Shown: positions 21,398-29,526 of the stretch, one piece after another
Layout: each line of letters starts with the position of its first letter
How positions within the stretch are numbered: the stretch's first letter is position 1
Assembly: GCA_002682945.1 (NCBI GenBank)
Contig: NYSL01000028.1
Coordinates: forward strand, 1 to 36,446
Reading direction: 5' to 3'
Source of the DNA: Cryomorphaceae bacterium
Lineage (GTDB): Bacteria; Bacteroidota; Bacteroidia; Flavobacteriales; Schleiferiaceae
Length of the DNA: 36,446 nucleotides
Program-made: the position numbers and the translations under genes
The notes under the pieces: generated by a model
Seen by the model: only the letters and a program-made list of their open reading frames with translations
What the model was told of the DNA's origin: nothing
Database searches by the model: none

Positions 21398-22864
21398 CTA
21401 GGCTTGAACATCCATTAACATATTTTTTAAAATCAAAGCATCGTCAAAGGGTGTTTTTTCTCCATTTATTTCTTGAAATTTCTCATGCCCTTTACCAGCT
21501 AATACTATTATATCTCCAGGATTTGCATTTTGGCATGCCAGCTTAATAGCTTCTCGTCTGTCCTCAATCGTAATGCATTGTTTTTTCTCCAACTCCTCAA
21601 GGCCATTTTCCATTTCTTTGAGAATAGTTCCGGGTTTTTCCGTCCTTGGATTATCAGATGTTAGTATTAAATAATCACAAAGGCTAGCTGAGATAGATGC
21701 CATTTTTGGACGCTTTTCTTTATCTCGATCTCCACCGCATCCAATTATTGTAATTATTCTTTGCGATGATTTTCGAAATTTCTGAAGATTATTAAGAGTT
21801 TTTTCAAGGGCATCTGGAGTATGCGCATAGTCAACAATCCCAATGATATTGTTTGGGCCTTCTATTTTTTGGAATCTTCCATCTACAGGCTCCAATGCGC
21901 TCATTCCTTGTAAAGCAATATCGGGGGCCATTCCTAGTTGAATAGCAGCACCATAAACTGCACATGCATTCGATACATTGAAATCACCTATCAGTTTTAG
22001 CCAACATTCTTTTTGATTTATGCTAATTAGAGTTCCACTTATATGACTTTCTAAAATTCTTGCTTTTATATCTGCATTTCCAAGAATGCCGAATGATAAT
22101 TTTTTTTTAGCCTTACATTCTAAAATCATAGTTTCCCCAAAAACATCGTCTAAGTTGTAGAGGGCAAATGCAGATTGATTCAATTTGTCAAAAAGAATTT
22201 TTTTTGCTGCAACATAATTATCTAATGTCTTGTGATAATCTATGTGGTCATGGCTGATATTCGTAAATATTGCCCCTTTAAATTGAATTCCAGATACTCT
22301 GTTTTGAATTAGCCCATGGGAACTAACCTCCATAAATACAACCTTACAACCTTGTCCGGACATCTTATTCAGATATTTTTGAATTTCCCATGAGTCGGGC
22401 GTGGTATGTTGAGTAGGGTAGTTGGAGTTATGAATTGAAATTTTAATTGTTGATATTAAGCCCGATTTTACTCCACTATTCTTAAATAGTTGAAACAATA
22501 AGGATGCTGTTGTAGTCTTTCCATTTGTCCCTGTTATTCCAACAATTGTCAGTTTCTCCGAAGGCCTATTAAACCAATTCCCAGCGATGATTGCATTTGC
22601 TTGAGAGGATGAACTTACATGTATATATGTTACATTTTTATTTATGATTTTAGGTATTTTCTCACAAATAATAGCAATGGCCCCGTCATTAATAGACTTT
22701 TCTATAAATTCATGTCCATCAGCTGAAGATCCTTGAATTGCGACAAATAAATCATCTTTTTTTATATTTTTTGAATTCGAGTTGACATTATTAATTGCAA
22801 CTAATGTTGAACCTAAAACATCTAGAATCCTAACACCAAAAAGGATATCCTTTAATAACTTCAT
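21398..22864 (-). CDS. murE: UDP-MurNAc-L-Ala-D-Glu--meso-diaminopimelate ligase
   Basis: MurE adds the third stem-peptide residue. The 488-residue protein has the uridine-binding N-terminal domain, the P-loop TGTNGKTTT (111-119), a central [10 protein letters not shown] segment (202-211) and the C-terminal specificity motif DNPR (404-407). DNPR is diagnostic for meso-diaminopimelate rather than L-lysine, so this organism should build DAP-type peptidoglycan. The start overlaps the ftsI stop by 4 bases (ATGA). Confidence 0.96.
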
Positions 22865-24864
22865 CCTAGTCTGATTAATATCTTTTTTTGTGGTTTTTCA
22901 ACTTTGTAATCGATCACAGCACCATTGCCTTGGAGTTTGATTTCCCACTTTTTATTTTCAAAGAGTTCGATAACATCGATACTTTTCCAGCCAATAATGT
23001 TTGGAATCTTACCCTCTTCTAATTTTGCTGCGGCACGATTATATTTTGAAGATGCTTTAGATTCATTTTGCTGCGTAACAAGCTGAATAGCATCATCCCA
23101 GTATCCTTGCGTTGGTGTATTTATTTGAGGAGTCATTTTATGAATGGACATGGCAATATCTTTAAATACCGGCGCGGCTACGATATTACCATAAAAGCCA
23201 GTTGATATTTCTGGTCGATTGATAACTACGATACAAGAATATTCTGGGTTTTTGGCTGGGAAATAACCGGCAAACGAGGCCTGATAACCTTTTTTTTCAG
23301 GATCCCAATAATTTAATTGTGAAGTTCCAGTCTTACCAGCTATCTCAAGAGAGTCAGAATAAATATTTTTCGCTGTGCCCCTTCGCACAGCCTTCTCCAA
23401 TAGATCTTTGATTTGATTTATATTGTCTCTGGAAGCTATTGAGGGGTGAGCTATTTTGATTTCATGATTTTTTATAATTAGTCCATGATCGCGAGTGGCT
23501 TCCCAAATAGACGGCTTTACCATTGTTCCGTTATTGGCAATAGCGTTATAAAACATTAAAGTTTGCAGAGGTGTATTCTCAACACCATAACCAAACAGCA
23601 TCCATGGTAATGAAAGTCCATTCCACTTTGATGTTCCGGGCTTAGGTATGAAGGGCATGCTTTCTCCAGGAATCTGAATTTTAGATTTATCAGCTAATCC
23701 AATTTGATACATTCTATCAATAAATTCTTTTGGATTATTTTTGTATTCTGGGTATAGTGCCTTTACGATACCTGTGTTTGACGATAATTCAAGTGCTCTC
23801 CCAAGGGATATTAACCCATAACCATCTTTTTTCGAGTCTTTTACTTTTCTCCCATATATCGTGTAAGTTCCTCCTTTTGTATCTACTTTTTGTGCTGTAT
23901 CAACCTTTCCATCCTCCAATGCCACTAGTAATGCTGCTACCTTAAAAGTGGATCCTGGTTCAGACTTTTCCCAAACAGAGTAGTTCCTTAATTCTCTATA
24001 TGTATCGTTCTTATCAGTTTTTCCAAGATTAACCATAGCTCGAATTTTTCCTGAAGAAGCCTCCATTACAATCACACAGCCATGATCTGCATTGAATTTT
24101 TTTAATTGCTCAATAAGTGACTTATGAGCAATGTCTTGTATTCGAGAATTTATCGTAGTTACTATATCTTTCCCATTTACAGGCGGGATTGAAAAATCAC
24201 TATCAATAGGTTTCCATTGATTCCCACCAAAATTTTGCATCCATCTCTTTCCATAATTACCTTTTAAAATATGATTGAATGACGATTCTAATCCAACTTT
24301 ACTATTTCCCCTTACATATCCAATGGTCCTCTCTGCTAATACTCCAAGAGGCATGAGTCTGGTATATTTTTCATGTGCAATTAAACCTGTCTTGTATTTA
24401 TTGCCCCTAAAAAGAGACATTTTTTTTACTTTTTGATACTCTGTGTAACTAATGTCTTTTATCAAGAAAGCATATCTTTTTTTAGCTCTAAATGTTTTTC
24501 TTAAATAGTCTTCCCAGTACTTTTGGGTTTTAGCCTGAATGCCAAACAAATCTGATAAAGCTTGACTTGTTTTTTTTACTTCAGACTTGAATCTTAATGG
24601 ATCCATAATAGCGGCATCCCACCTTAATTCATACACTGGCATGGATGTGGCCAAAAGTTGCCCGTCAGATGAGTAAATGTTACCCCGGCTTGCCGGCACC
24701 TGTCTTTCTTGTATTACTTTCTCTCTGGCTGTGACAATTAAATCAGGCCCGAGCGAAAAAGAAATGAAGTATAATTTGAAAAGTATAATAAATGCAACGA
24801 CTCCGGTAAAAATGACAAGCCAAGCCATTTTTCGAATGCTCGATTCATACTTATCAGTCATCAT
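22861..24864 (-). CDS. ftsI: septal transpeptidase FtsI (PBP3) with PASTA domain
   Basis: This is a class B penicillin-binding protein that cross-links septal peptidoglycan as partner of FtsW. The 667-residue protein has one N-terminal transmembrane helix (about 13-35), a dimerisation/pedestal domain containing RGNIYSSDG, and the transpeptidase domain with active-site Ser305 in STFK, SSN at 361-363 and KTGT at 511-514. A single C-terminal PASTA domain (about 611-667) is present, as in other Bacteroidota FtsI but not in E. coli. Tandem ATGs at 24864 and 24861 are equally good starts. It overlaps the ftsL-like gene by 11 bases. Confidence 0.96.
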   Translation of the reverse strand: MMTDKYESSIRKMAWLVIFTGVVAFIILFKLYFISFSLGPDLIVTAREKVIQERQVPASRGNIYSSDGQLLATSMPVYELRWDAAIMDPLRFKSEVKKTSQALSDLFGIQAKTQKYWEDYLRKTFRAKKRYAFLIKDISYTEYQKVKKMSLFRGNKYKTGLIAHEKYTRLMPLGVLAERTIGYVRGNSKVGLESSFNHILKGNYGKRWMQNFGGNQWKPIDSDFSIPPVNGKDIVTTINSRIQDIAHKSLIEQLKKFNADHGCVIVMEASSGKIRAMVNLGKTDKNDTYRELRNYSVWEKSEPGSTFKVAALLVALEDGKVDTAQKVDTKGGTYTIYGRKVKDSKKDGYGLISLGRALELSSNTGIVKALYPEYKNNPKEFIDRMYQIGLADKSKIQIPGESMPFIPKPGTSKWNGLSLPWMLFGYGVENTPLQTLMFYNAIANNGTMVKPSIWEATRDHGLIIKNHEIKIAHPSIASRDNINQIKDLLEKAVRRGTAKNIYSDSLEIAGKTGTSQLNYWDPEKKGYQASFAGYFPAKNPEYSCIVVINRPEISTGFYGNIVAAPVFKDIAMSIHKMTPQINTPTQGYWDDAIQLVTQQNESKASSKYNRAAAKLEEGKIPNIIGWKSIDVIELFENKKWEIKLQGNGAVIDYKVEKPQKKILIRLG

Positions 24865-25192
24865 TTGGTTTTTGTATTGTTATGGGCGCTTTGGCTAAGG
24901 AAATAAGTCCAAGTTTTTTGGCTCGCATTTGAACAGAAGATTCTTGTTCCATTTTCATTAATATTGACTTTGACTCCAAGTATTGACTCTCTAGCTCATT
25001 GATCTCAATAGTTTTTTCTGATATCATTCGAACATTTGATTCTGCTCTATGTGCTGCCCAAATTTGTATTATCGCTAAAGTTGTTAGATAGAGTATAAAA
25101 GGTAAATTTTTTAGTATTGTTGGATGCCCCAAGAAACTTCCCCTTAATATTCCTTTAAGGGCTTTAATATTTCTGTGGTTGAGATATTTCAT
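24854..25192 (-). CDS. ftsL: FtsL-like cell division protein
   Basis: This small bitopic protein of 112 residues has a basic N-terminal cytoplasmic part (1-27), one transmembrane helix (about 30-46) and a coiled-coil-like segment with a heptad pattern (about 50-95). FtsL has this topology and size and sits between rsmH and ftsI in almost all dcw clusters; it activates FtsWI with FtsQ and a FtsB-like partner. Direct sequence similarity to E. coli FtsL is not visible, so the call leans on position and topology. It overlaps the rsmH stop by 4 bases. Confidence 0.82.
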   Translation of the reverse strand: MKYLNHRNIKALKGILRGSFLGHPTILKNLPFILYLTTLAIIQIWAAHRAESNVRMISEKTIEINELESQYLESKSILMKMEQESSVQMRAKKLGLISLAKAPITIQKPNDD

Positions 25193-26094
25193 ATAAAAAT
25201 CTCTTTTTTTTCCGCAGCACGAAGCTTAGCTGATCTGGATCTTGGGTTTTCCTCAATTTCTTTGGGTCTTGGAACTATGGGCTTCCGTGTAATTATCTTA
25301 AATGGGGTAAGTCGGTTTCCATATTTATCTCTGGGAGCATCACCATTATGCTGACCTTCTCGAAAATATATTTTTACCCTTCTATCCTCCAAACTATGAT
25401 AAGAAATGATAACAAATCGACCTCCATAAGAAAGGATCTCCTGACCTTCATGGAGTAAATGTTCAAGGACCTCTAATTCTCGATTTATTGAAATACGAAT
25501 TGCTTGGAAAACTTTTGCAAAAACCTTTTCTCCTTTGCGCCCATGCGGTTCAATAACATCTAGCAATTCTTTAGTTGTGAGAATTGGAGATTTGTTTTGC
25601 GCAGTCAAAATAATTTGGGCCAGTTTTTTTGGTCGACTAACCTCTCCATACTCAGATAGCGCTTTTGTTAGAGTAAATTCATCAATCTGATTTAACCATT
25701 CTGCAGCGGATACACCTTTCTTTGGATTCATTCGCATATCTAAGGGGCCATCTCCACGAATTGAAAATCCTCTTTTGAAAATATTTAATTGATGAGAGCT
25801 TACTCCTAGGTCAGCAATAATCCCGTCTACTTTCTCAATCTTATTCAGCTTCAAGAATTTTTTTAGATGTTCAAAATTGTGAGGGATTAATGTAAATCTT
25901 GAATCAGTTATATTATTTGCTAAGGCATCTGGATCTTGGTCAAATCCAAAAAGTTGCCCTTTGGACCCTAATTTTTTTAGTATGAGATTACTATGGCCAC
26001 CACCTCCAAAAGTGGTATCTACATATATTCCATCAGGATTGATGGAGAGGAGATCAATCGATTCATTCAGTAGAACAGGTTTATGATATTCCAT
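25189..26094 (-). CDS. rsmH: 16S rRNA (cytosine(1402)-N(4))-methyltransferase RsmH
   Basis: RsmH (MraW) methylates N4 of C1402 in the 16S rRNA decoding centre using S-adenosylmethionine. The 301-residue protein starts with the family hallmark YHKPVLLNE, followed by the SAM-binding loop DTTFGGGGHS (26-35), the FDQDPDA acidic loop, ADLGVSSHQL and the C-terminal SYHSLEDRRVK motif. Length is normal. It overlaps mraZ by 14 bases and the ftsL-like gene by 4. Confidence 0.97.
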   Translation of the reverse strand: MEYHKPVLLNESIDLLSINPDGIYVDTTFGGGGHSNLILKKLGSKGQLFGFDQDPDALANNITDSRFTLIPHNFEHLKKFLKLNKIEKVDGIIADLGVSSHQLNIFKRGFSIRGDGPLDMRMNPKKGVSAAEWLNQIDEFTLTKALSEYGEVSRPKKLAQIILTAQNKSPILTTKELLDVIEPHGRKGEKVFAKVFQAIRISINRELEVLEHLLHEGQEILSYGGRFVIISYHSLEDRRVKIYFREGQHNGDAPRDKYGNRLTPFKIITRKPIVPRPKEIEENPRSRSAKLRAAEKKEIFI

Positions 26095-26548
26095 CTGAAT
26101 TTTTTTCTCCCATTACTTCTTCCGTTAGCTGCGCAAAATCATTATCTTCTAAATTCACAGCTCTTTCGTAATCAGATAGATTCCATATCTCGAGTCCAAA
26201 AGGAGTCGCGCTGAAAACTATATTACTTTTGAGATTTGCAAAATTTATTAAATCTTTTGAAATTAAAATTCTTCCGGAAGAATCCATTTCAACTTGTTTC
26301 ACTCCTGCGTGAAACATTCGAATAAATTCATTATTCTTTTTAATAAACCTGTTTAATTTTTTTAATGAATTTGTGACACTAGTCCATTCGTCTTGTGTAT
26401 GAAGTTCAAGGCATTTACTAAATACACTTCTTTTCAGAATGAAACCATGAGACCCTAATGAAAGAAGTTGCTTTTTTAATGAAGCCGGGACGGATACGCG
26501 CCCTTTTACATCCATTTTACATTCATATACACCTAGTAATTCTCTCAC
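26081..26548 (-). CDS. mraZ: transcriptional regulator MraZ
   Basis: MraZ is an AbrB-like DNA-binding ring protein that represses the dcw promoter in E. coli and Mycoplasma. The 155-residue protein has two tandem SpoVT-AbrB repeats, each with a DxxxR motif: DVKGR at 13-17 and DSSGR near 89-93. The start is GTG at 26548; the ATG two bases upstream is out of frame and runs straight into a stop. It heads the 16-kb dcw operon, and its likely own binding sites lie just upstream (26584-26608). Confidence 0.95.
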   Translation of the reverse strand: MRELLGVYECKMDVKGRVSVPASLKKQLLSLGSHGFILKRSVFSKCLELHTQDEWTSVTNSLKKLNRFIKKNNEFIRMFHAGVKQVEMDSSGRILISKDLINFANLKSNIVFSATPFGLEIWNLSDYERAVNLEDNDFAQLTEEVMGEKNSDGIS

Positions 26549-26567
26549 ATCAAATTGATTGTAAATT

Positions 26568-26601
26568 CAAAAATACCTATTTATCCCACTATTTCCCACA
26601 A
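26568..26601 (-). promoter_or_regulatory. predicted dcw operon promoter
   Basis: On the minus strand a TTG (26601-26599) and an exact TAnnTTTG match, TATTTTTG (26575-26568), are separated by 23 bases, at the upper end of the 17-23 spacing known for Flavobacterium promoters. The RNA would start near 26562, giving a leader of about 14 bases before the mraZ GTG. It is the only -7 match facing mraZ in the 182-base gap. Confidence 0.6.
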
Positions 26602-26608
26602 ATACCCA
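26584..26608 (-). promoter_or_regulatory. MraZ-box array (three TGGGN repeats)
   Basis: The minus strand carries TGGGT (26608-26604), TGGGA (26598-26594) and TGGGA (26588-26584), each separated by exactly five bases, so the repeat unit is 10 bases, one helical turn. MraZ is known to bind direct TGGGN repeats spaced this way upstream of its own gene. The second and third boxes fall between the predicted -33 and -7 elements and the first lies just outside, an arrangement expected for autorepression. Confidence 0.8.
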
Positions 26609-26627
26609 CAAAAGTTGATAACTTTTG
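26609..26627. repeat. perfect inverted repeat upstream of the MraZ boxes
   Basis: CAAAAGTTGATAACTTTTG has 8-base arms around a 3-base centre and directly abuts the outermost MraZ box. No coding sequence overlaps it. It could be an operator half-site pair for a dimeric regulator. It lacks a T tract and no gene ends here, so it is not a terminator. Confidence 0.5.
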
Positions 26628-26693: not shown

Positions 26694-26701
26694 TATCTTT
26701 G
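26694..26701 (+). promoter_or_regulatory. predicted -7 element of the hydrolase-engB operon
   Basis: TATCTTTG matches TAnnTTTG exactly, 29 bases before the first ATG of the alpha/beta hydrolase. It is the same octamer seen before rsgA and the acyl-CoA dehydrogenase gene. No TTG is present at the usual -33 distance. Confidence 0.5.
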
Positions 26702-26730: not shown

Positions 26731-27510
26731 ATGATGAATGAATTAATACCTGAACTCAAGAAAGAAGGTAAGTATGAATATAAAATTGCGGGTGAGGGTA
26801 CTCCAATTATATTTCTTCACGGTTTGATGGGGACTTTAGGAAATTTTGACGCTCAGGTAAATTTTTTTGCAAACGCAGGATTTCAGGCTTCTGTCCCATC
26901 ACTTCCCCTCTATTCTATGCCTTTAGCGAAAACAAGTGTGAAAAGCTTAACTCGTTTCGTAAAGTCGTTTATCGAACACATGGGTTATGAAAAAGCCATT
27001 TTAGTCGGTAATTCTTTAGGAGGTCACATTTCTTTAATGATGCAAAAAATGTATCCTGAAAATGTTTTGGGGCTTGTTTTAGCCGGGAGTTCTGGGCTTT
27101 ATGAATCGGCAATGGGTAATTCGTATCCGCGTAGAGGTGACAGAGACTATATAGCAGAACGAATTAGAGATGTTTTTTATGTTAAAGAGGTTGCTACTGA
27201 AGAATTGATCGATGATGTTTTTGCTACTGTTAATGATCGAAATAAAGCAATAAAAACATTAGCTATTTCGAAGAGTGCTATTCGACACAATATGTCAAAT
27301 GATATCAAAGGTTTTAATGTGCCGGTATGTATTGTTTGGGGTAAGCAAGATGAGGTAACCCCTCCCGAAGTTGCAGAAAAGTTTCATCAACTTTTACCCA
27401 GCTCAGAATTATATTGGATTGCTAAATGCGGACATGCAGCAATGATGGAGCATCCTGAAAAATTTAATTCGATTATATTAAAATGGCTGAAAAACTCTTT
27501 GGAGAATTAA
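26731..27510 (+). CDS. alpha/beta fold hydrolase
   Basis: This 259-residue alpha/beta hydrolase has an intact catalytic triad: nucleophile Ser95 in GNSLGG, Asp207 in WGKQDEV and His235 in CGHAAMMEHP. The oxyanion segment HGLMGT lies at 30-35. There is no signal peptide, so it is cytoplasmic. The substrate is unknown; the fold covers esterases, lipases and C-C hydrolases. Tandem ATGs at 26731 and 26734 are both possible starts. It overlaps engB by 28 bases, so the pair is cotranscribed, and it diverges from mraZ. Confidence 0.88.
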   Translation: MMNELIPELKKEGKYEYKIAGEGTPIIFLHGLMGTLGNFDAQVNFFANAGFQASVPSLPLYSMPLAKTSVKSLTRFVKSFIEHMGYEKAILVGNSLGGHISLMMQKMYPENVLGLVLAGSSGLYESAMGNSYPRRGDRDYIAERIRDVFYVKEVATEELIDDVFATVNDRNKAIKTLAISKSAIRHNMSNDIKGFNVPVCIVWGKQDEVTPPEVAEKFHQLLPSSELYWIAKCGHAAMMEHPEKFNSIILKWLKNSLEN

Positions 27511-28166: not shown

Positions 28167-28490
28167 TTAGCCGATTAGTTTTAATTTTTCTGCAAAATAT
28201 TTTGCAAAATCTCTAATGTCTTCAGAAATTTCATCCTCATTTGTTGAGCGTTTAAAGCTGTCAGCCATTGAAAGTAATGTTTGATGATAAAACTTCTTCA
28301 TGTCGTCTACCAACATATCTTTTGTCCACAAATCAATTTTTAGTGTATCCTTTGTCTTTCCATCCCAAACAGATAGCATAAAGGCATCTGCTTTAGACTT
28401 ATCTACCCCGCCATCGGGAGCTGACCATTGAATATTTTTTGGAACTCGATTTTTATCCAGTTCGATATCTAGACTTATTTTAGAATTCAT
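28167..28490 (-). CDS. gldC: gliding motility protein GldC
   Basis: GldC is a small cytoplasmic protein linked to gliding in Flavobacterium, partnering GldB genetically; its biochemical role is unknown. The 107-residue product matches the family along its length, with the central hallmark SVWDGKTKDTLKIDLWTKDM and the C-terminal FHQT-like segment (FYHQTLLSMADSFKR) followed by FAKYFAEKL. There is no signal peptide. It is 14 bases downstream of gldB. Confidence 0.92.
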   Translation of the reverse strand: MNSKISLDIELDKNRVPKNIQWSAPDGGVDKSKADAFMLSVWDGKTKDTLKIDLWTKDMLVDDMKKFYHQTLLSMADSFKRSTNEDEISEDIRDFAKYFAEKLKLIG

Positions 28491-28504
28491 TTTTTGATTT
28501 TTAT

Positions 28505-29503
28505 TTAGGGTCTGTACCCAGATTTCTGAAGAATCAAATTTACATTTTCATTATCTAATATCTGTGATAAGGTAAGTTCTGGATTGGCTAACCAATAGCT
28601 TTGAAGAATTTTCCAACCAAACCAGATTCCGACTTGTCCAGGTATTTGTTGATCAATAGATGTTCCAAATGGGCTAAAAGGTGATGGCTCAATTAATTTT
28701 CTTTTTAGCTCAAAGGATTTGTCAAATAACCATCTTTGATTCAAAATAATTGTCCACAAGTTCTTTTCATTCTTTTCAAGAAAATCATATTTATCGACAG
28801 ATATATTCATTGCTTGGTACGCTTCATCTTTTCCAAGAATCGTTTGAATAAATAGTATTTTTTTTCCAGAATTAATCATGGCTGTTAGTAAAGATGAATT
28901 TTTCTTGGATTGGGATATATGCTCTTCACTTAAAGCTTTGAACAATTCAATAATTATTTGGTCTGAATCATGTCTTGACCTTTGATAAATAGATTCCCTT
29001 GCATATAGGGGATGTTCCCTCCCAAGATATCTATCCCATGGTAAAAAATAAATTTGAGGACCTTTTAAAACCCAAAAGTTTTCATTTCGACTTATGTAGG
29101 TATAGATATCAATTTTTTTTGCAAGATCAAGAAATCGATGATTATATTGAGAAATTCCATAATTGACTCTGGATTCGAATTCTTCTACTGGCATGCGAAA
29201 TTTTCTCGCATCTTGATAGATTGCTTGGACTTCTGGATCTAATAAGTAGGGGGGGAGTTCGGACTTCCAATTAAAAGAAGTATCGGGACTCGTAAAAATA
29301 GCTGGGTGTCGATACTGCATTTCGACTAGTTTTTGAAATAGATCAAGAGAGTCTAATCCCAAAACAGAGTCTGAAAAGTGTACAAAACTTATTTGATTTA
29401 TAGGCGCAATGTCTTTAGTATGTTCCCATGGTTTTTGATGACATGAGTTTAAAAAAAACAATGAACCAATGAGCAGTGTTAAATTTGAATATATTTTAAA
29501 CAT
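28505..29503 (-). CDS. gldB: gliding motility lipoprotein GldB
   Basis: GldB is a lipoprotein required for gliding and surface-adhesin function in Flavobacterium. I place the start at ATG 29503, giving 332 residues with a textbook lipoprotein signal: a hydrophobic run 8-18 and lipobox LNSC with Cys21. A TTG seven codons upstream (29524) would spoil the signal N-terminus. The mature part is mostly alpha-helical and without enzymatic motifs, consistent with GldB. The size (about 330) fits the family, and gldC follows immediately, as expected for the gldB-gldC pair. It diverges from nadE across only 23 bases. Confidence 0.88.
   Translation of the reverse strand: MFKIYSNLTLLIGSLFFLNSCHQKPWEHTKDIAPINQISFVHFSDSVLGLDSLDLFQKLVEMQYRHPAIFTSPDTSFNWKSELPPYLLDPEVQAIYQDARKFRMPVEEFESRVNYGISQYNHRFLDLAKKIDIYTYISRNENFWVLKGPQIYFLPWDRYLGREHPLYARESIYQRSRHDSDQIIIELFKALSEEHISQSKKNSSLLTAMINSGKKILFIQTILGKDEAYQAMNISVDKYDFLEKNEKNLWTIILNQRWLFDKSFELKRKLIEPSPFSPFGTSIDQQIPGQVGIWFGWKILQSYWLANPELTLSQILDNENVNLILQKSGYRP
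29480..29487 (+). promoter_or_regulatory. possible nadE -7 element inside the gldB 5' end
   Basis: TAAATTTG is an exact TAnnTTTG match on the plus strand, 40 bases before the nadE ATG and inside the signal-peptide codons of gldB. The divergent gap is too short for a full nadE promoter, so some overlap with gldB is expected. No TTG at -33 is seen. Confidence 0.35.
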
Positions 29504-29508
29504 ATTAT

Positions 29509-29516
29509 CAAAAATA
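29509..29516 (-). promoter_or_regulatory. possible gldB -7 element
   Basis: TATTTTTG on the minus strand (29516-29509) matches TAnnTTTG and lies only six bases before the gldB ATG (29503). It sits inside a 14-base string, ATAGGTATTTTTGA, identical to the one at the mraZ promoter (26580-26567). No TTG -33 element lies 17-23 bases upstream. Confidence 0.45.
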
Positions 29517-29526
29517 CCTATCAAAA

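Follow-up and report, generated by a model that had tools for sequence, protein, structure and literature searches.

The window, a stretch of 36,446 nucleotides from a Cryomorphaceae genome, carries on its minus strand mraZ followed by rsmH, an FtsL_2 gene, and ftsI-like and murE-like genes. Given this gene order, the repeat array directly 5' of mraZ stands at the head of a cluster of division and cell-wall genes (dcw), the position expected of an MraZ operator. The encoded protein is MraZ (PF02381), with relatives among the solved MraZ structures. Read on the minus strand, the region ...AAAAGTTATCAACTTTTGTGGGTATTTGTGGGAAATAGTGGGATAAATAGGTATTTTTGAATTTACAATCAATTTGATGTGAGAGAATTACTAGGT... contains the array, a TTG and the element TATTTTTG, and all letters and coordinates that an earlier sequence-only reading had given for the TGGGN repeats at exact 10-base steps, the TTG, the N23 spacer and TATTTTTG on that strand were exact. 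The numbering used below sets the T of the -7 element at -12 (PMC6847099). The features are listed in order of the minus strand.

26613..26621, minus strand: DnaA-box-like 9-mer TTATCAACT, at about -58 to -50 and 12 bp 5' of the first G in box 1
26604..26608, minus strand: MraZ box 1, TGGGT, about -45 to -41 with the T of TATTTTTG at -12; kept in 113/113 upstream regions
26599..26601, minus strand: TTG taken as a -33 element in the earlier reading (N23); not conserved
26594..26598, minus strand: MraZ box 2, TGGGA, about -35 to -31, over the expected -33 position; read in the sequence and in 113/113 upstream regions
26584..26588, minus strand: MraZ box 3, TGGGA, about -25 to -21, inside the spacer; read in the sequence and in 113/113 upstream regions
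26576..26577, minus strand: GG where a degenerate fourth box would fall in register, immediately 5' of the -7 element; in 19/28 same-genus records only
26568..26575, minus strand: -7 element TATTTTTG (TAnnTTTG); exact TAnnTTTG at a fixed distance in 105/113
26562..26563, minus strand: start site of transcription as predicted by the Flavobacterium johnsoniae rule (PMC6847099), 4-5 nt 3' of the -7 element
26081..26548, minus strand: mraZ, GTG start (PF02381, E=5.8e-19)
25189..26094, minus strand: rsmH (mraW), overlapping mraZ (PF01795, E=7.2e-93)
24854..25192, minus strand: ftsL-like gene, FtsL_2 (PF19579, E=6.1e-24)
22861..24864, minus strand: ftsI-like penicillin-binding protein, next in the cluster, read from its translation without a profile search
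21398..22864, minus strand: murE-like ligase, next in the cluster, likewise read from its translation without a profile search

The predicted mraZ leader is only about 15 nt long, and the GTG start overlaps an out-of-frame ATG followed by an immediate stop (ATGTGA, 26550-26546, minus strand). On the plus strand, TATCTTTG at 26694-26701 lies about 30 bp 5' of a divergent alpha/beta-hydrolase gene (26731-27510) and is likely a divergent promoter sharing the 180-bp intergenic region. Genes resembling gldC and gldB, which are gliding-motility genes, lie near the dcw cluster (28167-29524, minus strand) in this small genome (1.65 Mb).

The repeat array and its conservation

As expected of an MraZ operator, the array comprises at least three TGGG/GTGG direct repeats with a 10-bp period. 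Three exact TGGG boxes at 10 bp matched once in the window, against a mean of 0.05 in shuffled windows with one mismatch allowed, and TGTGGN6GTGGN6GTGG occurred once in the whole 1.65-Mb genome, where its reversed control did not occur. The observed array is far beyond chance. In this species, AAAAGTTATCAACTTTT (26624-26608) is also a perfect palindrome with 7-bp arms; congeners retain the left part only, and we rejected the palindrome as a functional unit because its right half is not conserved.

We drew mraZ upstream regions from members of the same genus, from further families of its order and from named genomes. The first survey held 113 records, nearly all from Flavobacteriales and 106 of them distinct, and three boxes at exact 10/10 bp spacing were present in all 113, a count that does not represent independent events since many records are from Flavobacterium and the sequences are related. 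Four more Flavobacteriales loci that had escaped the initial search pattern likewise carried the array, with 0 to 2 mismatches (117 loci in total), and every mraZ-bearing family of the order examined contained it. The earlier proposal that these are MraZ-type boxes 5' of mraZ was supported, and the refuting condition set with it, irregular or absent boxes in close relatives, did not arise: the 10/10 spacing was found in 113/113 records.

Eleven sampled genomes had no MraZ match; rsmH was sought in ten of these and found in eight, and a comparable array preceded the readable rsmH in none of the eight. The nearest match before rsmH had two mismatches, lay in GC-rich sequence and reads as chance. 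Two mraZ-less genomes of the same order kept TAnnTTTG words and had lost the boxes. Given that the array is missing before rsmH where mraZ was lost, the boxes are tied to MraZ, in agreement with the pattern expected of its operator, with presence at 117 loci that have the gene and absence from eight genomes that do not.

A DnaA-box-like word upstream of the array

In its loose form (TTWTNMACW), the 9-mer stood at -11 or -12 from box 1 in 106 of the 113 records, and the tighter TTATNMACA was seen in 90 of them versus 1.1% in shuffles. The most frequent words before box 1 were TTATTAACA (40), TTATCAACA (30), TTATCAACT (11) and TTATTCACA (11), followed by the rarer TTTTCAACA (5), TTATGCACA (4), TTATCCACA (4) and TTATTAACT (3), and nearly all copies of these eight were at -11 or -12. 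A further GTGG lay 21 bp before box 1 in 56 of 85 records outside the genus, sometimes with another at 32 bp (15/85). The 9-mer shares the TTAT..AC frame of the DnaA box (TTWTNCACA), with the canonical TTATCCACA, TTATTCACA or TTATGCACA in several relatives. The classic form was found in 19 of the 113 relatives and not in the window, whose copy, TTATCAACT, departs from a DnaA box at positions 6 and 9. Among other orders of Bacteroidia, classic TTWTNCACA was present in 6/13, mostly on the opposite strand (null 1.8%), a signal we consider weaker because TGTGGAAAA doubles as a possible MraZ-like box; TTATNMACA was seen in 0/42 genomes of other classes. Given that the 9-mer word was rarer genome-wide than its reversed control, both here (169 versus 254) and in F. 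ammonificans (228 versus 390), it does not seem to be a generic promoter element. We know of no DnaA-like 9-mer at the MraZ sites of Mollicutes.

DnaA itself is conserved, its domain IV matching 1J1V (E=5.6e-17) with the recognition motif DHAT instead of DHTT. Several 9-mer words occur in the AT-rich rpiB-rnr gap of one complete Flavobacterium genome, F. ammonificans, near a sign change of the sampled GC skew. Across the 420 bp before rpiB in 27 relatives, TTATNAACA was seen 26 times versus 2.4 expected and TTATNCACA nine times versus 0.9 expected, while scrambled words showed no enrichment; this approximately 10-fold enrichment partly reflects shared ancestry, as with TTATGAACA 20 bp before rpiB in many congeners. 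At six loci, the AT-rich gap before rpiB was rich in TTATNAACA words on both strands. We regard this gap as a candidate replication origin of Flavobacteriales, with the rpiB upstream region as presumed oriC. Another cluster of DnaA-like words in this genome (C18:3.6-4.0 kb) was dropped as oriC, three of its four words being inside an open reading frame, and no DnaA boxes were found beside dnaA in this genome. Before dnaB, the 9-mer was seen six times versus 0.8 expected, a weak signal, and the dnaB upstream region was not retained as a second DnaA target.

DnaA may bind the 9-mer at mraZ, a suggestion we make tentatively and count as less likely given the lack of boxes at dnaA, the weak dnaB signal and the absence of the 9-mer before rsmH in both mraZ-less Flavobacteriales. 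The word could instead belong to the MraZ operator or be bound by a different factor, which we consider plausible with similar reserve: its position at -11/-12 of box 1 is fixed, it is missing along with mraZ in those two genomes, and in most records beyond the genus it is flanked on its other side by the GTGG found 21 bp 5' of box 1, all of which, like the weak dnaB enrichment, would suit a function unrelated to DnaA. However, the word bears no resemblance to GTGG, its variants TTATTAACA, TTATCAACA, TTATTCACA, TTATGCACA and TTATCCACA fit the DnaA-box pattern, and the enrichment of TTATNAACA and TTATNCACA before rpiB, unmatched by scrambled controls, places such words at the candidate oriC.

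Promoter geometry and the sign of regulation

In 105 of 113 records, an exact TAnnTTTG began 14-16 bp downstream of box 3, counted from its first G (null 0.4%, first-order-Markov shuffles), and the same held for 12/12 genomes of a separate order-level draw, as expected of a -7 element held at a constrained place in a Bacteroidota primary-sigma promoter. Counted alone, TAnnTTTG was not significant in the window (42 seen versus 50 expected); its significance comes from its position relative to the array and not from the word count. Box 2 occupies the -33 position, and the AT-rich stretches that flavobacterial promoters favour fall between the boxes. This geometry, like the array, its spacing, its conservation and its absence from mraZ-less genomes, is established at the level of sequence. 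The locus shares with typical Bacteroidota primary-sigma promoters (TAnnTTTG, weak TTTG at -33; PMC7366714, PMC6847099) an exact -7 element and no strong -33, and it differs from them in an upstream half that holds a regulator array, with AT-rich stretches alternating with G-rich boxes. The sequence-only reading therefore stood in part. Its placement of MraZ boxes over a Bacteroidota-type promoter agrees with a -7 element fixed relative to the array across Flavobacteriales, but its TTG -33 element, with a 23-base spacer leaving room for two boxes, failed outside the genus, as detailed below. Neither the DnaA-like 9-mer nor the different layout in other classes figured in that reading.

We consider it likely, with good confidence, that the MraZ operator of the dcw cluster occupies the upstream half of a primary-sigma promoter of the Bacteroidia type, where MraZ probably represses its own expression. 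In support of such a promoter, the genome encodes a 287-aa primary-sigma-like protein without region 1.1. RNA polymerase would read the -7 element TATTTTTG and presumably start at the predicted position, and MraZ, a multimer with repeated DNA-binding units, would bind the three boxes on one helix face, from about -46 to -21. With the -33 position covered by box 2 and the spacer holding box 3, MraZ on its boxes should keep polymerase off the upstream half of the promoter, which would lower transcription of its own operon and close an autoregulatory loop on the cluster. The DnaA-like 9-mer (-58 to -50) would be a probable second regulatory input.

Repression is the probable sign of this regulation. 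The sign could be opposite, given that MraZ activates the dcw cluster in Neisseria elongata, where deletion lowers and overexpression raises expression (PMC9395523). MraZ bound at -46 to -21 would then replace the missing -33 element and recruit polymerase, and several features here would suit such an activator: no -33 TTG is conserved outside part of the genus, the boxes stand upstream in its stead, and the array ends at a fixed distance 5' of the -7 element. We nevertheless consider activation unlikely. Boxes 2 and 3 overlap the stretch that polymerase should cover, an arrangement that is usually blocking, and the missing -33 needs no special explanation because this element is weak across flavobacterial promoters (PMC6847099). 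In RNA-seq data from F. johnsoniae, the -33 motif stood out far less than did AT-rich stretches with centres at -18 and -28 (PMC6847099), and a later paper described it as not identified in this species (PMC7366714); a TTG/TTTG at -33 is therefore not strictly required.

That the promoter is TTG-N23-TATTTTTG, with an unusually long spacer accommodating two boxes, seems improbable. A TTG 17-23 bp before the -7 element, where a -33 would be expected, was present here and in 12 of 28 same-genus records, always at N23 and above the 22% null, but in 0/77 records outside the genus (null 19%), where TTG was at N24-25 or N15 or absent while the boxes were unchanged. Given these records, we rejected TTG-N23 as a conserved -33. 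The TTG belongs to the box's own flank, and its N23 spacing is apparently a local coincidence arising from TTGTGG.

Operator side across classes and a possible second input

MraZ-type repeats also preceded mraZ in the other classes of the phylum that were sampled (42 usable genomes), some with more mismatches. In 23 of the 42, a TTGAC-N15-19-TAnnTT promoter abutted box 1 or stood close to it, and the boxes followed downstream (null 0.2%); a -7 element after the array was found in 0/42. Six loci of these classes had a perfect TTGACA-N18-TACATT abutting box 1 of the mraZ promoter. Conversely, an upstream TTGAC/TAnnTT promoter before the array was found in 0/138 Bacteroidia records (113 + 12 + 13, sets partly overlapping). 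Other orders of Bacteroidia had a looser -7 element, at 14-16 bp exactly in 2/13 and with at most one mismatch in 6/13 (null 4.6%). Given that the array is downstream of the promoter in other classes and upstream of -7 in Bacteroidia, the sequence comparison indicates that core promoter and operator have changed sides. A switch of sigma factor was rejected, in its simple form, as the cause: region 1.1 was undetected in 30/30 genomes of the phylum, region 2.4 of the primary sigma differs hardly at all between Bacteroidia and other classes, and the -10 of other classes also reads TAnnTT.

The E. coli mraZ promoter and its MraZ operator of TGGGN direct repeats were reportedly described by Eraso et al. 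in 2014. As here, GTGGG boxes with a 10-bp period lie directly 5' of mraZ, but the E. coli layout is TTGACA-N17-TAAACT-7 bp-boxes, with boxes at and after the start site, whereas in the window they span about -46 to -21, on the 5' side of the -7 element. E. coli MraZ regulates its own operon, and the same role may be read here. In Mollicutes, according to a passage of PMC8475190 that quotes Fisunov et al. 2016, MraZ binding sites are defined as AAAGTG[T/G] direct repeats in the mraZ promoter; these GTG-containing repeats resemble the array described here, and their box sequence and promoter type differ. Although our literature search turned up no paper describing DnaA boxes at mraZ or MraZ sites in Bacteroidota, and no binding data from any member of the phylum, it is very improbable that the boxes bind another regulator and precede mraZ incidentally, with the same repeats and period before mraZ in E. 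coli and the other classes sampled and none seen before rsmH where mraZ was lost. MraZ is thus the protein that we infer to bind the array.

What is known of MraZ control over the division cluster comes from few species, which use sigma-70-type promoters and differ in the sign of regulation, and to our knowledge little is known about cell-cycle control in Bacteroidia. The most useful extensions offered by this analysis are the class contrast in promoter side and the conserved DnaA-like neighbour. The same operator on opposite sides of the promoter within one phylum provides a natural comparison between blocking of the start site and upstream blocking or activation. More cautiously than for DnaA binding alone, we suggest that the Bacteroidia mraZ promoter might be a conserved two-input switch, with DnaA at about -54 and MraZ on three boxes before -7, in which the core promoter has moved across the operator. 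Were this so, replication initiation would be directly coupled to the transcription of division genes, given that DnaA and MraZ would both bind the mraZ promoter. If the 9-mer is a DnaA site, it would tie chromosome replication to cell division in Bacteroidia through a connection that is simple, conserved and open to direct test.
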